DNA of 32,123 nucleotides from Streptomyces hirsutus (GTDB lineage: Bacteria; Actinomycetota; Actinomycetes; Streptomycetales; Streptomycetaceae): NCBI RefSeq assembly GCF_001418415.1, contig NZ_LIQT01000189.1, positions 1-32,123 on the forward strand, written 5' to 3'. The notes beneath the pieces are model-generated. The model saw only the letters and a program-made list of their open reading frames with translations, was not told the origin of the DNA and did not search any database. How positions within the stretch are numbered: position 1 is the first letter of the stretch; every line of letters starts with the position of its first letter. A program made the position numbers and the translations under genes. Positions 2,428 through 12,971 of the stretch are shown piece after piece.

Positions 2428-3816
2428 TCAGGCCGTCTCGTCACCGAGCGGCTGCGGGTTCGGGCTGATCCGCCTGGGCTTGGGCCGCCCCGGGGGGTGC
2501 AGGAACACCGCGACGCAACCGGCGAACAGGGAGATCGAACCGGCCAGGACGAACGCGCCCGCGTAGTCCCAGCTCGCCACCACGACGGCGCCCATGCCGG
2601 ATCCGAGCAGACCGGAGACGAGCTTCGAGGAGTACACCAGGCCGTAGTTGGTGGCGTTGTTGTTCTCACCGAAGTAGTCGGCGGTCATCGCGGCGAACAT
2701 CGGGAAGATGGCACCGCCGCCGAACCCGGAGATCGACGAGAACAGCAGGAACAGCGGCAGGTTCCCGATGTTCCCGGAGAACAGGATGCCGTACTGGGAC
2801 AGCCCGAGGACGATGCAGACGAAGATCAGGCACTGCTTGCGGCCGTACCGGTCGGAGAGCCAGCCGATGACACCGCGGCCGGTGCCGTTGACGATCGCCT
2901 TCAGGGACATGGCGGTCGCCACGATGCCGCCCGCGAAGCCCGCGTCGTCACCGAAGGGCACCTGGAAGGCGATGCCGAAGATGTTCACCCCCGACGTGCA
3001 CAGGAGGCAGAACCACATCAGGGCCACCCGGCCGGTCCGCCACGCCTCCATGGGGGTGTACTGGTGCACGGCCGGCGGGTTCTTCTCCATCGCGCGCCGG
3101 GTGCGCGCGTCGGTCGGCTTCTTCAGCGGGTCGATGTCGGCCGGCCACCAGTTCTTCGGCGGGTCCTTGAAGAAGTAGCCGGCTCCCGCCACCACACCGG
3201 CCAGGAACACACCCACCGCGACCAGCACCCAGCGGAAGTTGGTGAGGTCCATGTAGCCGGTGAAGATGAAGACGAACGGCACCGAACCGTAGGCGAAACC
3301 GCCGTTCACGAAGCCGGTCTTGCCGCCCTTGCGCTCCGGATACCACTTGGCGACCATGTTCACGCAGGTCGCGTACACCATGCCGGCACCCATACCGCTG
3401 AACATGCCGAAGCCGAGATACGCGACGATCACATGCGGCGCGAAGGCCAGCGAGACATAGCCCAGCAGGGTTCCCACCGCGCCGCACATCATCGCCCAGC
3501 GGGCCGGCAGTCTGCCGCTCTCCCGCAGCTTGCCCGCCGGGAAGGCCACCGCCGCCTGGAAGAACACCCACACGCCCAGCATCCAGAAGATGTGCGCGCT
3601 GCTCCACGAATGGGCCGTGTGCAGCGTGTCCTCGGCGGAAGCGAACGCGTACTCCGCCGAGGAGATGCCCATCATGCCGATCCACGGCAGGATGACCATC
3701 CACTTGCGCTTGCGGCCCATGATGTCGATGTCGGTCTCACCGAGGCGGTAGACGCGTCCGTTCGCGTCGGCCACCTCCCGGTAGGGAACCGAAGTCCGCA
3801 GATCGGTCGTTGTCAT
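2428..3816 (-). CDS. OFA-family MFS transporter, likely oxalate:formate antiporter (OxlT-like)
   Basis: A 462-residue membrane protein with about 12 hydrophobic segments, typical of the major facilitator superfamily. The central stretch NMVAKWYPERKGGKTG followed by a Gly-rich helix is characteristic of the oxalate/formate antiporter (OFA) family. OxlT exchanges external oxalate for internal formate, which makes a proton gradient because decarboxylation consumes a proton. The ATG at 3816 is preferred to an upstream start at 3867 because AAGGGG lies about 11 bases before it. It is the last gene of a minus-strand run with an acyl-CoA synthetase, frc and a ThDP lyase, which supports a carboxylate substrate. 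A hairpin at 3893-3925 separates it from the upstream gene, so it may need its own promoter in the short 3817-3892 gap. A formate/2-hydroxyacid or related anion is possible instead of oxalate. Confidence 0.85.
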   Translation of the reverse strand: MTTTDLRTSVPYREVADANGRVYRLGETDIDIMGRKRKWMVILPWIGMMGISSAEYAFASAEDTLHTAHSWSSAHIFWMLGVWVFFQAAVAFPAGKLRESGRLPARWAMMCGAVGTLLGYVSLAFAPHVIVAYLGFGMFSGMGAGMVYATCVNMVAKWYPERKGGKTGFVNGGFAYGSVPFVFIFTGYMDLTNFRWVLVAVGVFLAGVVAGAGYFFKDPPKNWWPADIDPLKKPTDARTRRAMEKNPPAVHQYTPMEAWRTGRVALMWFCLLCTSGVNIFGIAFQVPFGDDAGFAGGIVATAMSLKAIVNGTGRGVIGWLSDRYGRKQCLIFVCIVLGLSQYGILFSGNIGNLPLFLLFSSISGFGGGAIFPMFAAMTADYFGENNNATNYGLVYSSKLVSGLLGSGMGAVVVASWDYAGAFVLAGSISLFAGCVAVFLHPPGRPKPRRISPNPQPLGDETA

Positions 3817-3939: not shown

Positions 3940-6087
3940 TCATGAACCGCCCCCCAACAAACCCGCCGCCCGCGCCCAGCGGTACTTCGCCCCGAGCACC
4001 GCCACCGGCCGCTCGGTCGTGTACGGGTACGCCACGACGCCCCGCTCGAAGAGGTACTGGCACGCCTCCTCGACCTCCACGTCGCCCGCCAGCGACGCCA
4101 CCACCGGCTTCTCGACGCCCCGTTCGCGGAACTCCGCCACCACCCGCGCGGTGAGCTCCGCGAACACCATGGGAGGCGTGACGATGGTGTGCCAGTAGCC
4201 GAGGACGAGCGCGTGGATGCGCGGGTCCTCAAGACCCAGCCGGATCGTCGCCTCGTACGTCGACGGCGGCTCGCCCCCGGTGATGTCCACCGGGTTGCCG
4301 GCCGCTCCGAAGGGCGGGATGAACTCGCGGAACGCCGCGTCCAGATCCGGCGGGATCTCCATCAGCGACAGCCCGTTGTCCGTCACCGCGTCCGACAGCA
4401 GCACCCCGCTGCCGCCCGCCCCCGTGATGATCACGACGTTGTCGCCCTTCGGGGCGGGCAGCACCGGCAACGCGCGCGCGTACTCGAGCATGTCGCTGAG
4501 ACCCGGCGCGCGGATCACACCGGCCTGCCGCAGGATGTCGTCGTACACGGCGTCGTCGCCCGCCAGCGCGCCGGTGTGCGAACCCGCGGCCTTCGCGCCC
4601 GCCGCCGTACGGCCCGCCTTCAGCACCACGACCGGCTTCTTCGGCACCGTCTCGCGCGCGGCCCGCACGAACGCCCGCCCGTCCTTGAGATCCTCCAGGT
4701 GCATGGCGATGCAGTCGGTGTGCGGGTCCTGTCCGAACCAGGTCAGCAGGTCGTCCTCGTCCAGGTCCGACTTGTTGCCCAGCCCGACGATCGCCGACAC
4801 ACCCGTCCGGGTGGTGCGCGCGAACCCCAGGATGGCCATCCCGATGCCGCCCGACTGCGAGGTCAGCGCGACCCCGCCCTTGACGTCGTACGGCGTGCAG
4901 AACGTGGCGCACAGGTCCTGCCACGTCGAGTAGTAGCCGTAGATGTTGGGTCCGAGGAGCCGGACGCCGTGCCGCTCGGCGATCGCCACGATCTCGTCCT
5001 GGAGCTCCTGCTCACCGGTCTCCGCGAACCCGGAGGGAATGAGGACGGCGTTCGGGATCCCCTTGCGCCCCACCTCCTCCAGCGCCGCGGCCACGAACCT
5101 GGCGGGAATCGCGAAGACCGCCACATCCACCTCACCGGGGACGTCCGTGACACTCTTGTACGCCTTGCGGCCCAGGATGTCATCGGACTTGGGGTTCACC
5201 GGATGGATCTCCCCGGCGAAGCCGCCGTCCACCAGGTTGCGCATCACCGAGTTGCCGATCTTGCCCGGCTCGGCGGAGGCGCCGATCACGGCGACCGAAC
5301 GCGGCTGCATCAGCCGCCGCATGGAGGCGAGGATCTCCTCACGCGAGTACTGGCGGCGCTCCTTCGGCACCTCGGTCGCCAGGATCACCCGGATGTCGGC
5401 GGCGACCGCGCCGTCCGGTGTGGCGATCACCGGATTGAGGTCCACCTCGGCGATCTCCGGGAAGTCCGCGACGAGTTCCGACACCCGGCGGATCTGCTCG
5501 GCGACCGCCCACCGGTCCACACCGGCCTGCCCGCGTACCCCGCGCAGGATCTCCGCCGACCGGATCGAGTCCAGCATCGACAGCGCCTCGTCGGGGTCCA
5601 CCGGCGCGAGCCGGAAGGTGACGTCCTTGAACACCTCGACGAGCACCCCGCCGAGCCCGAACGCGACCACCTTTCCGAACGTCGGGTCCGTGACCGCCCC
5701 GACGATGACCTCCTGCCCCTGCGGCAGCAGCTCCTGCACCTGCACGCCGTCGATCCGGGCGGCCGGATCGTACGCGCGGGCGTTCTCCACGATCCGGCAG
5801 AACGCCGCCCGCACATCGGCCGCGCCCTCCACACCGACGATCACACCGCCGGCGTCGGTCTTGTGCAGGATGTCCGGTGAGACGATCTTCATCACGACGG
5901 GCCCGCCGAACCGCGCCGCGTACGCCACGGCCTCGTCGACGTCCGTCGCCAGCTCCTCGCCCGGTACGGCGATCCCGTACGCGTCCGCCAGCACCTTGCC
6001 CTCGGGCGCGGTGAGCGCGGTGCGCCCGTCGGCGCGCACCGCGTCGAGCAGCGCGCGCACCCGGAGCGTGCGGTCCTCGGTCATCAC
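3940..6087 (-). CDS. ADP-forming acyl-CoA synthetase (acetate--CoA ligase family), ATP-grasp first
   Basis: A 715-residue protein with the parts of an NDP-forming acyl-CoA synthetase. An ATP-grasp domain occupies about residues 1-240 (MKIVSPDILHKTDAGGV, VDLNPVI). A CoA-binding Rossmann domain begins near residue 260 (MQPRSVAVIGASAEPGKIGN). Succinyl-CoA-ligase-like domains follow, with GSHTGALAGDDAVYDD carrying the candidate phospho-histidine. The beta-like part precedes the alpha-like part, opposite to many archaeal Acd fusions. The reaction is acyl-CoA + ADP + Pi to acid + CoA + ATP, reversible. It begins 1 base (GTG 6087) or 4 bases (ATG 6084) after the frc stop, so the two are translationally coupled. 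Role by inference: making the first acyl-CoA for the CoA-transferase cycle, or recovering ATP from formyl-CoA or another acyl-CoA. Substrate is unknown. Confidence 0.88.
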   Translation of the reverse strand: MMTEDRTLRVRALLDAVRADGRTALTAPEGKVLADAYGIAVPGEELATDVDEAVAYAARFGGPVVMKIVSPDILHKTDAGGVIVGVEGAADVRAAFCRIVENARAYDPAARIDGVQVQELLPQGQEVIVGAVTDPTFGKVVAFGLGGVLVEVFKDVTFRLAPVDPDEALSMLDSIRSAEILRGVRGQAGVDRWAVAEQIRRVSELVADFPEIAEVDLNPVIATPDGAVAADIRVILATEVPKERRQYSREEILASMRRLMQPRSVAVIGASAEPGKIGNSVMRNLVDGGFAGEIHPVNPKSDDILGRKAYKSVTDVPGEVDVAVFAIPARFVAAALEEVGRKGIPNAVLIPSGFAETGEQELQDEIVAIAERHGVRLLGPNIYGYYSTWQDLCATFCTPYDVKGGVALTSQSGGIGMAILGFARTTRTGVSAIVGLGNKSDLDEDDLLTWFGQDPHTDCIAMHLEDLKDGRAFVRAARETVPKKPVVVLKAGRTAAGAKAAGSHTGALAGDDAVYDDILRQAGVIRAPGLSDMLEYARALPVLPAPKGDNVVIITGAGGSGVLLSDAVTDNGLSLMEIPPDLDAAFREFIPPFGAAGNPVDITGGEPPSTYEATIRLGLEDPRIHALVLGYWHTIVTPPMVFAELTARVVAEFRERGVEKPVVASLAGDVEVEEACQYLFERGVVAYPYTTERPVAVLGAKYRWARAAGLLGGGS

Positions 6088-6088
6088 G

Positions 6089-7363
6089 TCAGATCACCCC
6101 GTTCGACTTGAGCAGGCGCAGTTCCTCGTCGCCGAGGCCGAGTTCGCCGACGAACACCTCTTCGTTGTGCTCGCCGAGCAGCGGGGAGGCGACCACGTCG
6201 ACGGGGGAGTCGGAGAGCTTCAGCGGGCTGCCGACGGTGACGAACTCACCGCGCTCGGGGTGCGGGACGGTGACGACCATCCCGTTCGCCGCCAGCGAGG
6301 TGTCCTCGATGATCTCCTTGGTGGACAGGATCGGCCCGCACGGGATGTTGTGCGCGTTCAGCCGCTCCAGCACCTCCCACTTGGGCAGCGTCGAGGACCA
6401 CTCCTCGATCAGCTGGAACATCTTGCCGAGCTTGGGCAGCCGGGCCTGCGGCGTCGCCCAGTCGGGGTCCTCGGCCAGCTCCGGCCGGCCGATCAGCTCA
6501 CTGACGGGCTTCCAGCCGACGGGCTGCACGATCACGTACACGTAGTCGTTCGGGCCGCCCGGCGCGCACTTGACCGCCCAGCCGGGCTGTCCGCCGCCGG
6601 ACGCGTTCCCGGACCGGGGGACCTCGTCGCCGAAGTCCTCGTTGGGGTATTCGGCGAGCGGGCCGTGGGCCAGGCGCTGCTGGTCGCGCAGTTTCACCCG
6701 GCAGAGGTTGAGCACCGCGTGCTGCATGGCCACGTTCACCCGCTGCCCGCGCCCGGTGGTCTCCCGCTGGAACAGCGCGGCGAGGATGCCCGCCACCACG
6801 TGGATGCCCGTGCCCGAGTCCCCGATCTGGGCGCCCGTCGCCAGCGGCGGCCCGTCCTCGAAACCGGTGGTCGACATCGACCCGCCCATGGCCTGCGCGA
6901 CGACCTCGTACGCCTTGAAGGCGGTGTACGGACCGTCGCCGAACCCCTTGATGGAGGCGTAGACGATCCGCGGATTGATCTCCTTGATGCGGTCCCAGGT
7001 GAACCCCATCCGGTCGACGGCGCCCGGCCCGAAGTTCTCGACCATGACGTCCGAGCGCCGGATCAGCTCGGTGAGGATCTCCTTGCCGCGCTCGGTCTTG
7101 GTGTTGAGGGTGATGCTCCGCTTGTTGCAGTTGAGCATCGTGAAGTAGAGGGAGTCGACGTCGGGGAGGTCGCGCAGCTGTTTGCGCGTGATGTCCCCGG
7201 TCGGGGCCTCCAGCTTGACGACGTCCGCGCCGAGCCAGGCCAGCAGCTGGGTCGCGGAGGGTCCGGACTGGACATGCGTCATGTCCAGGACGCGGACGCC
7301 GTCGAGTGCCTTGGCGGTCGGGGCTTCGGGGGTGCGTGCGTTCACGGCGGTCTCGGTGGTCAC
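6089..7363 (-). CDS. frc: Formyl-CoA:oxalate CoA-transferase (class III, CaiB/BaiF family)
   Basis: A 424-residue class III CoA-transferase that moves CoA from formyl-CoA to oxalate through aspartyl-CoA and mixed-anhydride intermediates. It closely follows Frc from Oxalobacter as I remember it: [20 protein letters not shown] at the N-terminus, [35 protein letters not shown], the catalytic Asp in [10 protein letters not shown] near residue 182, the glycine loop [10 protein letters not shown], and NIPCGPI. The start is GTG 7363, with GAGG eight bases upstream. GTG 7372 is in frame and only 1 base past the lyase stop, but has a poor ribosome site. The gene sits between the ThDP lyase and the acyl-CoA synthetase in one tight minus-strand operon. 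Other CoA acceptors are possible in this superfamily, but the Frc match is strong. Confidence 0.92.
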
Positions 7364-7373
7364 CGGGGTCACC

Positions 7374-9056
7374 TCACTTGTACATCGTCTGGTTCATGGT
7401 TCCGGGGGCGTACGCGTCCGGGTCGACCCAGACGTTGATCAGGGACGGCTTGCCCGACTCGCGGGCCCGGCGCAGCGCGGGGCCGATGTCGGCGGGGTCG
7501 CGGACCTCCTCGCCGTGACCGCCCAGCATCTGCGCGAACTTGTCGTACGGGACGTCGCCGAGGGTGTTGCCGACCCGCTCGCGCTCCTTGCCGTACTTGG
7601 CGGCCTGGCCGTAACGGATCTGGTTCATCGAGGAGTTGTTGCCGACGATGCCGACGAACGGCAGGTCGTAGCGGACGAGGGTCTCGAAGTCCCAGCCGGT
7701 CAGCGAGAAGGCGCCGTCGCCGAAGAGGGCGACGACCTCCTTGTCGGGCCGCGCCTGCTTGGCCGCGAGCACGAAGGGGACCCCGACGCCGAGCGTGCCG
7801 AGCGGGCCCGGGTCCATCCAGTGGCCGGGCGACTTGGGCTGCACGACCTGCCCGGAGAAGGTGACGATGTCGCCGCCGTCGCCGATGTAGATCGAGTCCT
7901 CGGTGAGGAAGTCGTTGATCTCGCTGACCAGCCGGTACGGGTGGATGGGTGAGGTGTCCGACCGCAATTGCGGCAGCCGCTTCTCCAACGCGGTCTGCTC
8001 GGCGGCCCGCAGCTCGTCCAGCCACTCCTTGCGCCTGGACGCGCCTCCGTCGATGCGTCCGGACGCCGCCTCGGTCACCGACTTCAGCACCAGCCCCGCG
8101 TCGCCGACGATGCCGAGGTCGATGTCGCGGTTCTTGCCGACGGTGCGGTAGTCGAGGTCGATCTGCACGACCGTGGCGGTGGGGGAGAGCCGCTTGCCGT
8201 AGCCCATGCGGAAGTCGAAGGGCGTGCCGACGATCACGATGACGTCGGCGTTGGTGAAGGCGTACCGGCGGGACAGCTGGAAGTGGTGCGGGTCGCCGGG
8301 CGGCAGGGTGCCGCGTCCCGCGCCGTTCATGTACGCGGGGATGTTGAGGGTGCGGACGAGCTCGATGGCCGCCTCGGTGCCCCGGGTGGTCCACACCTGG
8401 CTGCCGAGCAGGATCGCCGGCTTCTCGGCGTGCGCCAGCAGATCGGCGAGCTTCTCGACGGCCTCCGGGTCGCCGGGCGAGCGCGTCGAGGCGCGGTAGG
8501 CGCCCTGCTGCGGCACGCGCGCCGTGGAGGCCGGCACCTTGGCGTCCAGGACGTCGCGCGGGATCTCCAGGAAGGAGGGACCGGGGGCGCCGTGGTAGCA
8601 CTCGCGGTAGGCCATCGACACCATGTCCGCGGCCCGCGCCGTGTGCGGCACGGTCGCCGCGAACTTGGTGATGGGGCTCATCATGTCGACGTGCGGCAGG
8701 TCCTGCAGGGACCCCATCTTGTGCTGGGACAGGGCACCCTGACCGCCGATCAGCAGCATGGGGGACTCGGCCCGGAAGGCGTTGGCCACCCCGGTGACGG
8801 CGTCGGTGGTGCCCGGGCCCGCGGTGACGACCGCGCAGCCCGGCTTGCCGGTGATGCGTGCGTAGCCGTCGGCCGCGTGCGCGGCGACCTGTTCGTGACG
8901 TACGTCGACGACCTCGATGCCCTCGTCGACGCAGCCGTCGTAGATGTCGATGATGTGGCCGCCGCACAGCGTGTAGATGCGGTCGACGCCCTCGGCCTTG
9001 AGGGCCTTGGCGACGAGATGACCGCCGGAGATCAGGTCCTGTGTGTCGTCGGGCAT
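7374..9056 (-). CDS. ThDP-dependent oxalyl-CoA decarboxylase / 2-hydroxyacyl-CoA lyase-type enzyme
   Basis: A 560-residue thiamine-diphosphate enzyme, the usual length for the family. The cofactor-activating Glu is in [17 protein letters not shown] (residue 55), and the ThDP/Mg motif runs from [13 protein letters not shown] to VGNN near the C-terminus. Oxalyl-CoA decarboxylase turns oxalyl-CoA into formyl-CoA and CO2; 2-hydroxyacyl-CoA lyase splits 2-hydroxyacyl-CoA into an aldehyde and formyl-CoA. Pairing with frc and an OxlT-like carrier argues for oxalate. However, the segment [10 protein letters not shown] (residues 115-124) lines up by eye with the lyase pattern (Phe-Gln) rather than the Tyr-Glu pair of Oxalobacter Oxc. 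The ATG at 9056 is chosen for AGGA seven bases upstream and because it gives the family N-terminus; an ATG at 9077 lacks a ribosome site. It is the first gene of the operon, divergent from sucC. Confidence 0.82.
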
Positions 9057-9120: not shown

Positions 9121-9144
9121 CATACAGTCGACGAATACTGTATG
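9121..9144. promoter_or_regulatory. Perfect inverted repeat in the divergent promoter region (operator candidate)
   Basis: CATACAGT (9121-9128) and ACTGTATG (9137-9144) are exact reverse complements with an 8-base spacer. They lie in the 213-base gap between the lyase (start 9056) and sucC (start 9270). One dimeric repressor or activator could control both arms. No regulator gene lies in this island, so the protein is unknown; GntR/FadR-type or IclR-type factors would be reasonable guesses only. Confidence 0.7.
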
Positions 9145-9269: not shown

Positions 9270-10400
9270 ATGGACCTGTACGAACATCAGGCGCGCGAAC
9301 TCTTCGAGGAACACGGCATCGTGGTGCCGGCGGCCGAGGTCACCGACTCGCCCAAACAGGCCCGCGGGATCGCCCGCCGGCTCGGCGGCCGTGTCGTCGT
9401 CAAGGCGCAGGTCAAGACCGGCGGGCGCGGCAAGGCGGGTGGAGTGAAGCTCGCCGCCGACCCCGCCGCCGCCGAACTGACGGCACGCCAGATCCTCGGC
9501 ATGGACATCAAGGGCCACACCGTCGGCAAGGTCATGCTCGCCCAACCCGTCGACATCCAGGACGAGTTCTACGTCTCCTACGTCCTCGACCGCGCGGCCG
9601 GCCGCTTCCTCGCGATCGCCTCCGCGGAAGGCGGCATGGACATCGAGGAGGTCGCCGCCACCCGCCCCGAGGCCGTCGCCCGCATCCCCGTCGACCCCGC
9701 CGAGGGCGTCACCTCGGCGACCGCGGCCCGCATCGCCGACGCGGCCGGCCTGCCGCCGCAGTCCGTCGACGTCCTGGTCCGCCTGTGGGAGGTCCTCGTC
9801 CGCGAGGACGCCCTGCTGGTCGAGGTCAACCCGCTCGTCCGCACCGGCGACGGACGGATCATGGCCCTCGACGGCAAGGTCACCCTCGACGACAACGCCC
9901 GCTTCCGACAGGCCCGTTGGGGCAGCGAGGACACCGCCCACGAGGACCCGCTGGAGGCGTCCGCGGCGGCGAAGGGCCTCAACTACGTCAAGCTGGACGG
10001 CGAGGTCGGCATCATCGGCAACGGCGCCGGCCTGGTCATGTCGACCCTCGACGTCGTCGCCGGCTGCGGGGCCAGGCCCGCCAACTTCCTCGACATCGGC
10101 GGCGGGGCGTCGGCACAGGTCATGGCGGACGGCCTCTCGGTCATCCTCTCCGACCCGGCCGTGAAGTCCGTCTTCGTCAACGTCTTCGGCGGCATCACCG
10201 CCTGCGACGCGGTGGCCGACGGCATCGTCCAGGCCCTCGGCACCGTCCGGCTGACCAAGCCGCTCGTCGTACGCCTCGACGGCAACAACGCGGCCCGGGG
10301 CCGCGCCGTCCTCGACGCGCACGCGCACCCGCTCGTCGAGCAGGCCACCACCATGGACGGCGCCGCGCACCGCGCGGCCGAACTCGCCACCACAGCCTGA
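9270..10400 (+). CDS. sucC: Succinyl-CoA ligase-type beta subunit (ADP/GDP-forming)
   Basis: A 376-residue ATP-grasp protein with the full SucC pattern: [17 protein letters not shown] start, [16 protein letters not shown] nucleotide loop, [20 protein letters not shown], and a C-terminal ligase domain with [11 protein letters not shown] and [10 protein letters not shown]. With SucD it interconverts succinyl-CoA + ADP + Pi and succinate + CoA + ATP. AGGAG ends seven bases before the ATG. sucD follows 11 bases after its stop. Its place beside frc and an aldehyde dehydrogenase, away from TCA genes, suggests a specialised second copy that either supplies succinyl-CoA as CoA donor or acts on another acid (malate thiokinase is a known relative). 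The family is certain; the physiological substrate is inference. Confidence 0.93.
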
Positions 10401-10411
10401 GGAGACCGGTC

Positions 10412-11296
10412 ATGGCGATCCACCTCACCAAGGAGAGCAAGGTCCTCGTCCAGGGCATGACCGGCGGCGAGGGCATGAAGCACACCCGGCGCATGCTCGC
10501 GGCCGGCACCGACGTCGTCGGCGGAGTCAACCCGCGCAAAGCCGGCCGGACCGTCGACTTCGACGACCGCGCCGTCCCCGTCTTCGGATCGGTCGCCGAC
10601 GGCATACAAGCGACCGGGGCCGACGTCACGGTCGTCTTCGTACCACCGGCCTTCGCCAGGTCGGCCGTCGTCGAAGCGGCCGACGCCGGAATCGGCCTGG
10701 CCGTCGTCATCACCGAGGGCATCCCCGTCCACGACTCCGTCGCCTTCACCGCCTACGCACGGCGGAAGGGCACCCGCGTCATCGGCCCCAACTGCCCCGG
10801 CCTGATCACCCCCGGACAGTCCAACGCCGGCATCATCCCGGCCGACATCACCAAGCCCGGCCCCGTCGGACTGGTCTCCAAGTCGGGCACCCTCACCTAC
10901 CAGCTCATGTACGAGCTGCGCGACATCGGCTTCTCCACCTGTGTCGGCATCGGCGGCGACCCCGTCGTCGGCACCACCCACATCGACTGCCTCGCCGCCT
11001 TCCAGGACGACCCCGACACCGACCTCGTCGTCCTCATCGGCGAGATCGGCGGCGACGCCGAGGAACGCGCGGCGGCCTACATCCGCGAGCACGTCACCAA
11101 GCCGGTCGTCGCCTACATCGCGGGCTTCACCGCACCCGAGGGCCGTACCATGGGACACGCAGGCGCGATCGTCTCCGGCTCCTCGGGCACGGCGCGGGCC
11201 AAGAAGGAAGCGCTCGAAGCCGTCGGTGTCCGGGTGGGCGGCACCCCCACGGAGACGGCCCGGCACGTGCTCGCGGTCCTGGAAGCGGGGCGGTGA
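10412..11296 (+). CDS. sucD: Succinyl-CoA ligase-type alpha subunit
   Basis: A 294-residue partner of the upstream beta subunit. It has the CoA-binding Rossmann part ([26 protein letters not shown]), [32 protein letters not shown] and the phospho-histidine loop [13 protein letters not shown] (His near 249). The ATG is preceded by GAGGAG eight bases upstream, which overlaps the sucC stop, so the subunits are translated as a pair. Length and motifs are complete. The 98-base gap after it has no clear terminator, so readthrough into the aldehyde dehydrogenase gene is likely. Confidence 0.94.
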
Positions 11297-11393
11297 CCCC
11301 GGCCCGTCCCTTCGACCGCCACCACCCCAGCCAGGGGCGGCCCCAAGGGCCCCCTTCTCTCGACTGTGCACCGAGAGCGGAGCGAACCGCATC

Positions 11394-12971
11394 ATGGCAT
11401 CCACCCCGACAGCCTCATCCGCTGCGACGGCCCCACCCACCCTCACCCTCAAGGCCGGCACCTCCTGGGCCGACGCCTGGCAGCGCTGCCTCGCCGTCGC
11501 TCCCGAGGCCTTCCAGGACGACCGGGTCCTCAACCTCTGGAACGCCGCCTGGCAGGCCGACGGCCGGGCGCTGCCCGCCGTCAGCCCCGTCGACGGCAGC
11601 CCCGTGGCGGGCCCGCCACGCCTGGACCTGGGCACCGCCCGGCAGGCCGTACACGCCGCGCTCGACCAGCACCGCGCCTGGCGGCACGTCCCGCTGCCGG
11701 AACGCCGGGCCCGCGTCGGCGCCACCCTCGACGCCCTCACCGAGCACCGCGAACTGCTCGCCCTCCTCCTCGTCTGGGAGATCGGCAAACCCTGGCGGCT
11801 CGCCCAGGCGGACGTCGACCGGGCCATCGACGGCGTGCGCTGGTACGTCGACGGCATCGACGCCATGGTCGCCGGCCGCGCCCCGCTGGACGGGCCGGTG
11901 TCCAACATCGCGAGCTGGAACTACCCGATGAGCGTGCTCGTCCACGCTCTGCTGGTCCAGGCACTGGCGGGCAACGCGGTCATCGCCAAGACCCCGACCG
12001 ACGGCGGTGTCGCCTGCCTGACCCTGGCCTCGGCGCTCGCCGCCCGCGAGGGGATCCCCGTGACCCTCGTCAGCGGCGGCGGGGGCGAGCTGTCGGAGGC
12101 GCTGCTGCGGGCGCCCGAGATCGGCTGCGTCTCCTTCGTCGGCGGTCGCTACACCGGCGCCGCCGTGGCCACGGCCGTCGCCGACCTCGGCAAGCGGCAC
12201 ATCCTCGAACAGGAGGGACTCAACACCTGGGGCATCTGGAACCACTCGGACTGGGACGCGTTCGCGGCGGTCGTACCCAAGCTCTTCGACTACGGCAAGC
12301 AGCGCTGCACGGCGTACCCGCGCTTCGTCGTCCAGCGGCAGCTGTTCGACGAGTTCCTGGCCGCGTACCTGCCCGCGGTGCGCACGCTCAGGGTCGGCCA
12401 CCCGCTCGCGGTGGAGCACCCCGACGACCCCTTCCCGCGCCTGGACTTCGGCCCGGTGATCAACGCGGCCAAGGCGAAGGAGCTGCGCGACCAGGTCGCC
12501 GAGGCCGTCGAACGCGGCGCCGTGCCCCTGCATCGCGGCAGGCCCGGGAACGCCCGCTTCCTGCCCGGCCAGGACACCTCGGCGTACGTCCAGCCCGTCA
12601 CGTTGCTGGCCCCGCCCCGCTCGTCCCCGCTGCACCACGCGGAGCCGTTCGGGCCGGTCGACACGATCGTCCTGGTCGACACGGAGGCGGAACTGCTCGC
12701 CGCCATGAACGCCTCCAACGGCGCGCTGGTGGCCACCCTGTCCACGGACGACCGGGCCACCTACGACCGGCTCGCCCCGCAGATCCGCGCCTTCAAGGTC
12801 GGCCACGGCACCCCACGCTCCCGGGGTGACCGCGACGAGCTGTTCGGCGGGTTCGGCGCGTCCTGGCGCGGCGCGTTCGTCGGCGGCGAGCTTCTCGTAC
12901 GTGCCGTGACCCAGGGCCCGGCGGGAGAGCGGCTGCCGGGCAACTTCCCGGAGTACCAGCTCATGCCGTGA
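11394..12971 (+). CDS. Aldehyde dehydrogenase family protein
   Basis: A 525-residue NAD(P)-dependent aldehyde dehydrogenase-fold protein. The catalytic set is visible: Asn in SNIASWNYP, cofactor Lys in AKTPTDGG, general-base Glu in LEQEGLN and nucleophile Cys in GKQRCTAYPR. The usual FTGST glycine motif reads FVGGRYTG, and the N-terminal 45 residues are atypical, so it is a divergent subfamily. It oxidises an aldehyde to the acid or, if CoA-acylating, interconverts an aldehyde and acyl-CoA. Context suggests an aldehyde released by the ThDP lyase, or glyoxylate/oxalyl-CoA chemistry; this is inference. It is the last gene of the sucC-sucD run and ends in a hairpin that starts at its own stop codon. 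The ATG at 11394 is chosen because GGAG lies upstream and no earlier plausible start exists in this frame. Confidence 0.87.
   Translation: MASTPTASSAATAPPTLTLKAGTSWADAWQRCLAVAPEAFQDDRVLNLWNAAWQADGRALPAVSPVDGSPVAGPPRLDLGTARQAVHAALDQHRAWRHVPLPERRARVGATLDALTEHRELLALLLVWEIGKPWRLAQADVDRAIDGVRWYVDGIDAMVAGRAPLDGPVSNIASWNYPMSVLVHALLVQALAGNAVIAKTPTDGGVACLTLASALAAREGIPVTLVSGGGGELSEALLRAPEIGCVSFVGGRYTGAAVATAVADLGKRHILEQEGLNTWGIWNHSDWDAFAAVVPKLFDYGKQRCTAYPRFVVQRQLFDEFLAAYLPAVRTLRVGHPLAVEHPDDPFPRLDFGPVINAAKAKELRDQVAEAVERGAVPLHRGRPGNARFLPGQDTSAYVQPVTLLAPPRSSPLHHAEPFGPVDTIVLVDTEAELLAAMNASNGALVATLSTDDRATYDRLAPQIRAFKVGHGTPRSRGDRDELFGGFGASWRGAFVGGELLVRAVTQGPAGERLPGNFPEYQLMP

Follow-up and report, generated by a model that had tools for sequence, protein, structure and literature searches.

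A ThDP-dependent enzyme encoded beside frc in Streptomyces as a probable second, non-orthologous oxalyl-CoA decarboxylase

The window analysed here, a stretch of 32,123 nucleotides from Streptomyces hirsutus (contig NZ_LIQT01000189.1), contains a gene coding for a ThDP-dependent enzyme (Table 1) which is very probably a second, non-orthologous oxalyl-CoA decarboxylase, with its origin among the AcHACL/PRK05858-like members of the ThDP decarboxylase superfamily. By descent the protein is not a standard Oxc; by function, as we infer, it probably is one. Taken together, the results make it quite probable that there are two non-orthologous families of oxalyl-CoA decarboxylase, the second of which has an AcHACL-like active site, lacks the Tyr and Glu positioning the oxalyl group in Oxc, occurs in most frc-bearing Streptomyces and in some Cupriavidus, Caballeronia, Phyllobacterium and Nonomuraea, and has repeatedly been replaced by canonical Oxc beside one conserved cluster.

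The ThDP-dependent enzyme and its gene cluster

The gene is complete, consisting of a single open frame of 560 codons and a stop, and its product contains three TPP domains (Pfam). None of the best 25 NCBIfam families listed for the protein scores over its own cut-off: the top one, PRK05858, named acetolactate synthase, gives 510.6 bits (cut-off 587), NF058623, the model of the actinobacterial 2-hydroxyacyl-CoA lyase AcHACL, gives 374 bits (cut-off 600), and the Oxc model TIGR03254 gives 248 bits (cut-off 739.4). The latter match is also the best to TIGR03254 in the entire genome, in which no canonical Oxc was detected. The closest solved structure by sequence is the lyase AcHACL. The structure prediction made with 33 near-identical orthologs as input had a mean pLDDT of 49.8 and was not used.

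On the minus strand the ThDP gene is followed by frc, the ACD ligase gene and the OFA transporter gene, with sucC, sucD and the aldehyde dehydrogenase gene located divergently (9270-12971). The first-pass annotation had named the neighbouring gene frc, and its TIGR03253 score identifies it as a canonical one (Table 1). In all 81 loci examined the ThDP gene and frc are on the same strand, -11 to 67 bp apart. The OFA-family transporter is under both oxalate/formate cut-offs.

The cluster includes two ADP-forming CoA ligases, namely ACD and the sucCD paralogs, from Streptomyces through Cupriavidus, which could serve for oxalate charging or for ATP recovery from formyl-CoA; according to an excerpt of PMC10192776, oxalate CoA-transferase EC 2.8.3.2 and formyl-CoA hydrolase have no known gene. 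In most Streptomyces loci the aldehyde dehydrogenase gene is found together with sucCD, and this applies to loci that have lost the ThDP gene as well.

The palindrome in the divergent promoter region, a likely operator, is the sole site with at most one mismatch in its own genome and was found, with a spacer of 8-10, in 81 of the 87 divergent regions, including those of loci having no ThDP gene. Out of 21 upstream regions of canonical oxc, a related palindrome was detected only in L128 (G482) and L159 (G582); it is of the ATACTG-NAT-CAGTAT type, is located about 60 bp upstream of the gene and has a half-site in common with the operator, and most of the other canonical oxc genes share, by eye, a different upstream motif. 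This is only suggestive of canonical oxc being tied to the same operator as the cluster.

Table 1 Features of the ThDP gene and its cluster in the window
Feature	Coordinates	Strand	Basis or remark
OFA-family MFS transporter (start inferred)	2428..3816	-	TIGR00890 172 bits, under 375; TIGR04259 126 bits, under 335
ADP-forming acyl-CoA ligase, ACD type	3940..6087	-	profile/Pfam; also in the cluster of relatives
frc, canonical formyl-CoA:oxalate CoA-transferase	6089..7372	-	TIGR03253 695 bits, cut-off 504
ThDP-dependent enzyme of 560 aa (non-orthologous oxalyl-CoA decarboxylase, as proposed here)	7374..9056	-	reading frame, profile scores, tree
C-terminal tail (12 residues)	7377..7412	-	invariant in 33 orthologs
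11-residue motif, residues 473-483	7608..7640	-	Ile480 in the column of AcHACL Glu493, which is Tyr in Oxc rows
Arg263 (AcHACL R273, CoA contact)	8268..8270	-	in Oxc rows too; absent from IlvB and Gcl of the same genome
10-residue motif, residues 115-124	8685..8714	-	Gln118 aligns with AcHACL Gln128; solved OXC enzymes have Glu
Glu55, ThDP-activating Glu (AcHACL E65)	8892..8894	-	alignment
His34 (AcHACL H44, one of three residues holding the central water)	8955..8957	-	alignment
Palindrome ATACAGT-N8-ACTGTAT, likely operator, divergent promoter region	9122..9143	.	genome scan
sucC-like ADP-forming ligase beta subunit, divergent	9270..10400	+	PRK00696 492 bits, over 370
sucD-like ligase alpha subunit	10412..11296	+	PRK05678 439 bits, over 336
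Aldehyde dehydrogenase family protein (start inferred)	11388..12971	+	Pfam PF00171; in most mapped Streptomyces loci

Active-site residues and phylogenetic position

The first-pass annotation, made by eye, had described the motif of residues 115-124 as lyase-like, without the Tyr-Glu pair of Oxc, and the region after VGNN as different from Oxc, and the alignment agrees on both points. At the positions aligned with AcHACL L127-Q128 the enzyme has Leu-Gln where the three solved OXC enzymes have Tyr-Glu and the HACL1-type 8VZJ has Phe-Gln; the Oxc rows have Tyr-Glu there in eight cases out of ten and Tyr-Gln in two (L053, L056). In the column of AcHACL E493 the enzyme has Ile and 10 of 10 Oxc rows have Tyr. 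Neither motif is due to chance, because every residue of both is invariant in 33 aligned orthologs (at least 93% identity). The YAPGT and QTMYK parts of the C-terminal tail are kept also in Cupriavidus, Caballeronia, Phyllobacterium and Nonomuraea.

According to excerpts of PMC7190790, the substitutions Y126A and E127A strongly reduce the activity of the OXC from Mycobacterium mageritense, and Y485A reduces it. The absence of residues important in canonical OXC is direct counter-evidence to the assignment as an oxalyl-CoA decarboxylase, and, if the assignment holds, catalysis must rely on another set of residues. Common features with Oxc (Oxalobacter formigenes 2C31, Escherichia coli YfdU 2Q27 and Methylorubrum 7AYG; TIGR03254) are the partner Frc, the oxalate cluster, the ThDP-activating Glu (Glu56 in Oxc, Glu55 here), one CoA-contacting Arg and the reaction proposed here, whereas the clade is different, Oxc Tyr120-Glu121 correspond to Leu-Gln and the column of Tyr483 to Ile, and the score is far under the family cut-off.

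AcHACL (NF058623) has in common with the enzyme the GGHI and LQD-P-H motifs and Gln128, His44 and Thr88, located around the substrate and the central water. Altogether AcHACL E65, H44, T88, L127, Q128 and R273 are kept, whereas E493 is replaced with Ile and I492 with Gln, the CoA contacts R362 and R417 are lost, and the score of 374 bits is well short of the model cut-off of 600. The enzyme is shorter (560 aa versus 590 aa for AcHACL, as given in part of PMC7176365), and the tails differ, AcHACL having a large C-terminal lid. The gene settings also differ: the ThDP gene adjoins frc, whereas the neighbours of the AcHACL gene are hcl, mpdB and mpdC (excerpt of PMC7176365), not frc. Excerpts of PMC13327070 mention decarboxylases with Leu at the Glu493 position and human HACL2 with Ile there; Ile480 is therefore an argument for a decarboxylase, not proof.

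In the 51-protein tree all 10 Oxc rows cluster in a single clade (support 100/99) with the ThDP enzyme outside it, so that the clear placement in the Oxc clade which would have spoken against the first-pass annotation did not occur. The lone HACL1-type row, 8VZJ, joins Oxc (100/100), and the ThDP enzyme is not placed with the HACL1-type. Instead, its family groups with relatives of 43-47% identity and with the PRK05858 group (100/99). A joint clade of Oxc and the ThDP enzyme family is rejected (p-AU 1.2e-6), which, along with the TIGR03254 score and AcHACL as the best solved match, bears out the earlier view that the enzyme is not a standard Oxc. A joint clade of the family with AcHACL is disfavoured (p-AU 0.003), AcHACL being a long branch of whose exact position in the tree we are unsure. 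Row L099 was left out of this tree and the p-AU tests, as well as of the later tree including a Bosea enzyme described below.

PRK05858 is thus, together with the 43-47% relatives, the nearest large family in the tree, but its group keeps Glu at position 493 (10 of 10 rows, three rows verified by score) and the ThDP enzyme family does not. The mycobacterial HACL candidate P66947 is presumably a member of the PRK05858 family; it is placed near AcHACL in an excerpt of PMC13327070. In the phylum draw of 396 genomes the next best relatives of the ThDP enzyme are 44-47% identical. In relatives of 43-47% identity from other actinobacteria (L027-L040) the Glu493 position is occupied by Ile or Met and frc has no match nearby, and no frc, ACD, OFA or sucCD was found near 19 relatives of 37-46% identity (L080-L098, some on short contigs).

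Distribution and loss beside canonical oxc

The sample comprised 246 evenly drawn Streptomyces genomes, with E ≤ 1e-100 required for the ThDP gene and scores over the curated cut-offs for Oxc and Frc. The ThDP gene was found in 102 genomes, canonical oxc in 23 and canonical frc in 122, and none of the three in 123. Out of the 122 frc genomes, 99 have the ThDP gene only, 21 oxc only, two both and none neither. Canonical frc accompanies the ThDP gene in 101 of 102 genomes, the exception being G507, in which the gene is split over contigs. The ThDP gene and oxc avoid each other (Fisher p 6e-4).

When 177 genomes were drawn at the order level, the ThDP gene (E ≤ 1e-150) was present in 58, all within one of six genera. 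In G747 this draw gave a match to residues 139-560 of the enzyme only (C2:6950573-6951841), possibly another decaying copy. Orthologs include WP_121547999.1 of Streptomyces fungicidicus. Of 80 named loci coding for the nearest orthologs (95%), 78 are titled Streptomyces, and the titles of the remaining two, L180 (Kitasatospora aureofaciens NRRL B-2183) and L219 (Actinobacteria bacterium OV320), may be outdated.

The loci of all 23 oxc genomes were mapped (in G526 and G574 the frc cluster only, with the oxc locus left out). Twenty of them retain an frc cluster of the type found in the window (Frc identity 81-95%), and in three (G510, G596 and G606) the sole Frc is Oxc-linked, with an identity of 52-54% to that encoded at 6089-7372. 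Of the 20 genomes with both the cluster and oxc, 16 lack the ThDP gene, two have it truncated, one has it full-length but altered at the active site, and one has it intact. No trace of it was detected in the sucC-frc gap of 100-221 bp in 13 oxc genomes, and it was not found in G481, G482 and G619, the layouts of which are broken in different ways (missing sucCD; lack of sucC beside Frc, with Oxc located downstream of Frc-ACD; ends of contigs). In the stretches from G482 and G619 another ThDP protein, probably the Oxc itself, matches the ThDP enzyme at 28-30%.

The two truncated copies correspond to residues 2-19, 299-447 and 540-560 in G582 and to residues 200-560 in G589, so both are devoid of the stretch bearing Glu55. 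The full-length copy of G422, a genome with two canonical Oxc genes and an assembly listed as 4% contaminated, is altered at Cys31, His34, an 11-residue loop and the GDGGD motif. It is 74.9% identical to the enzyme from the window, with Frc being 91.2% identical, which is 12 s.d. under the trend of 79 loci; dN/dS against the genes of S. hirsutus is 0.31 for the G422 ThDP gene and 0.125 for its frc, compared to a median of 0.106 for the 79 other ThDP genes. G499 carries both genes intact. Thus, all 99 genomes that have frc and no oxc possess an intact ThDP gene, with each listed match extending from residue 1-7 to residue 560 with no stop, as does only one of the 20 in which the cluster occurs along with oxc (Fisher 4e-21, relatedness being ignored).

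The spacing, dN/dS and Frc-tree analyses covered the mapped loci of 81 of the 102 genomes with the ThDP gene. The Frc tree includes 106 rows, 79 of them oxc-less and 27 from 19 of the 20 oxc-bearing cluster genomes (the Frc of L154 being too short). The ThDP gene is lost in none of the 79 oxc-less rows and lost or decayed in 26 of the 27 oxc rows; along the tree the oxc label changes nine times (six or more of these on starred branches) and ThDP loss eight times. Six independent pairs gave 5.0 in the same direction, 0 in the opposite one and 1.0 with no difference (p 0.0625, with p 0.05 unreachable because fewer than six pairs differ).

In 15 mapped oxc loci canonical oxc adjoins a second frc, 50-55% identical to that at 6089-7372, and in five (G182, G482, G582, G589 and G605) no second frc was found adjacent to oxc. 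The newcomer is therefore often an oxc-frc pair, the arrival of which may have substituted for more than a single function. Six loci from oxc-bearing Streptomyces (L131, L134, L146, L147, L148 and L155), forming one clade in the Frc tree, have two frc copies of the 6089-7372 type flanking ALDH/sucCD and no ACD match in the stretch mapped.

A search of plasmids for the ThDP enzyme gave 17 records, eight of them with at least 60% identity, including those from Nonomuraea (84%) and from Caballeronia, Phyllobacterium and Cupriavidus metallidurans (66-68%). In four of four fetched loci frc directly follows the ThDP gene, passing the equivalog cut-off with 623-738 bits, and ACD is present as well; the three proteobacterial ones possess sucCD and a canonical oxalate:formate antiporter gene oxlT over the equivalog cut-off (601-653 bits, cut-off 335).

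The megaplasmid of Cupriavidus campinensis codes for an Oxc 63.5% identical to canonical Streptomyces Oxc. Next to it are two further frc genes and the cluster of C. metallidurans, sucD-sucC / frc (93%) - ACD (93%) - oxlT, minus the ThDP gene, no remnant of which was detectable in the 323-bp gap. This is the replacement pattern of Streptomyces repeated in another phylum. Among plasmid records, i.e. single replicons, which is the scope of the proteobacterial Oxc comparison, the 27 with Oxc (E ≤ 1e-150) and the eight with the ThDP enzyme family do not overlap in a single case.

A Bosea plasmid (L309:4696-7644) encodes a 36% identical ThDP enzyme and a CoA transferase (TIGR03253 396 bits, under the cut-off); the pair adjoins MmgE/PrpD and isocitrate dehydrogenase genes, and the ThDP enzyme branches beside the Oxc/HACL1 clade.

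Proposed reaction and its alternatives

By analogy with the known Frc/Oxc cycle, Frc would transfer CoA from formyl-CoA onto oxalate, and the ThDP enzyme would act on the resulting oxalyl-CoA: Glu55 would activate ThDP, the ylide would attack the oxalyl carbonyl, and CO2 would leave. The carbanion would then be protonated, probably by water held, as in AcHACL, by His34, Thr78 and Gln118, and the product, formyl-CoA, would return to Frc. The lyase Glu493, with Ile480 in its place, would not be needed, because there is no C-beta hydroxyl to deprotonate. In OXC the C-terminus closes the active site. The conserved tail YAPGT-x2-QTMYK may do the same here.

The main rival is a 2-hydroxyacyl-CoA lyase: Frc would convert a hydroxy acid to its 2-hydroxyacyl-CoA at the expense of formyl-CoA, the ThDP enzyme would split this CoA ester into formyl-CoA and an aldehyde, as the first-pass annotation had suggested, and the aldehyde dehydrogenase would oxidise the latter. 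Such a role agrees with AcHACL being the closest solved structure, with the retained equivalents of Gln128, His44 and Thr88, with the aldehyde dehydrogenase gene in most mapped Streptomyces loci and with the Ile which human HACL2 also has at the Glu493 position (PMC13327070, in part). Nevertheless, it is unlikely. The replacement of Glu493 by Ile is unfavourable, as the substitutions E493A and E493Q cost AcHACL lyase activity 10- and 50-fold, respectively (excerpts of PMC8760513), and the neighbours are canonical oxalate genes, with frc in all but one of the genomes bearing the ThDP gene and no aldehyde dehydrogenase match in the tblastn maps of the three proteobacterial loci. Furthermore, the arrival of canonical oxc would hardly make a lyase dispensable, but 19 of the 20 frc-cluster genomes with canonical oxc have either no ThDP gene or a decayed one; a lyase would also leave the 99 frc genomes without oxc lacking any known oxalyl-CoA decarboxylase.

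Less likely still, and by a wide measure improbable, is a carboligase in oxalate assimilation that would ligate, for example, an aldehyde with formyl-CoA or glyoxylate, the oxalyl-CoA being reduced to glyoxylate rather than decarboxylated. ThDP enzymes of this superfamily do ligate, and the Phyllobacterium locus includes a 2-dehydropantoate 2-reductase-like gene; the oxalyl-CoA reductase of Methylobacterium is a protein of this kind. However, a glyoxylate carboligase scoring over its cut-off (L005) is already encoded in the S. hirsutus genome, Frc requires formyl-CoA regeneration, and replacement by canonical oxc would be hard to explain. The acetolactate synthase suggested by the best-scoring NCBIfam name was rejected as having next to no likelihood, since the top family, PRK05858, at 511 bits is under its cut-off, an IlvB-type protein over its cut-off is encoded elsewhere in the genome (L001), and no branched-chain amino acid gene is among the named neighbours.

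Against the decarboxylase stand the absence of OXC-essential residues, the non-conserved R362 and R417, the relatedness of the genomes compared, the genome G499 keeping both enzymes, the possibility that an incoming oxc-frc pair took over several functions, and the transporter scoring under its cut-offs.

Two oxc surveys call oxc highly conserved in key residues (excerpts of PMC7190790 and PMC10192776). A literature search, covering mostly papers outside subscription, yielded neither a description of a second family of Oxc nor a paper on the cluster under the locus tags presumed for it in Streptomyces coelicolor. Degraders of oxalate by the CoA route are defined by oxc searches, which in Streptomyces find 23 genomes out of 246, while 99 more carry frc and the ThDP gene. 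If the enzyme is indeed an oxalyl-CoA decarboxylase, the map of oxalate breakdown in soil would change, with oxc surveys missing many Streptomyces; the catalytic need for the Tyr-Glu-Tyr set of Oxc could be tested directly by comparison with a natural alternative, and a new scaffold would become available to formyl-CoA chemistry.
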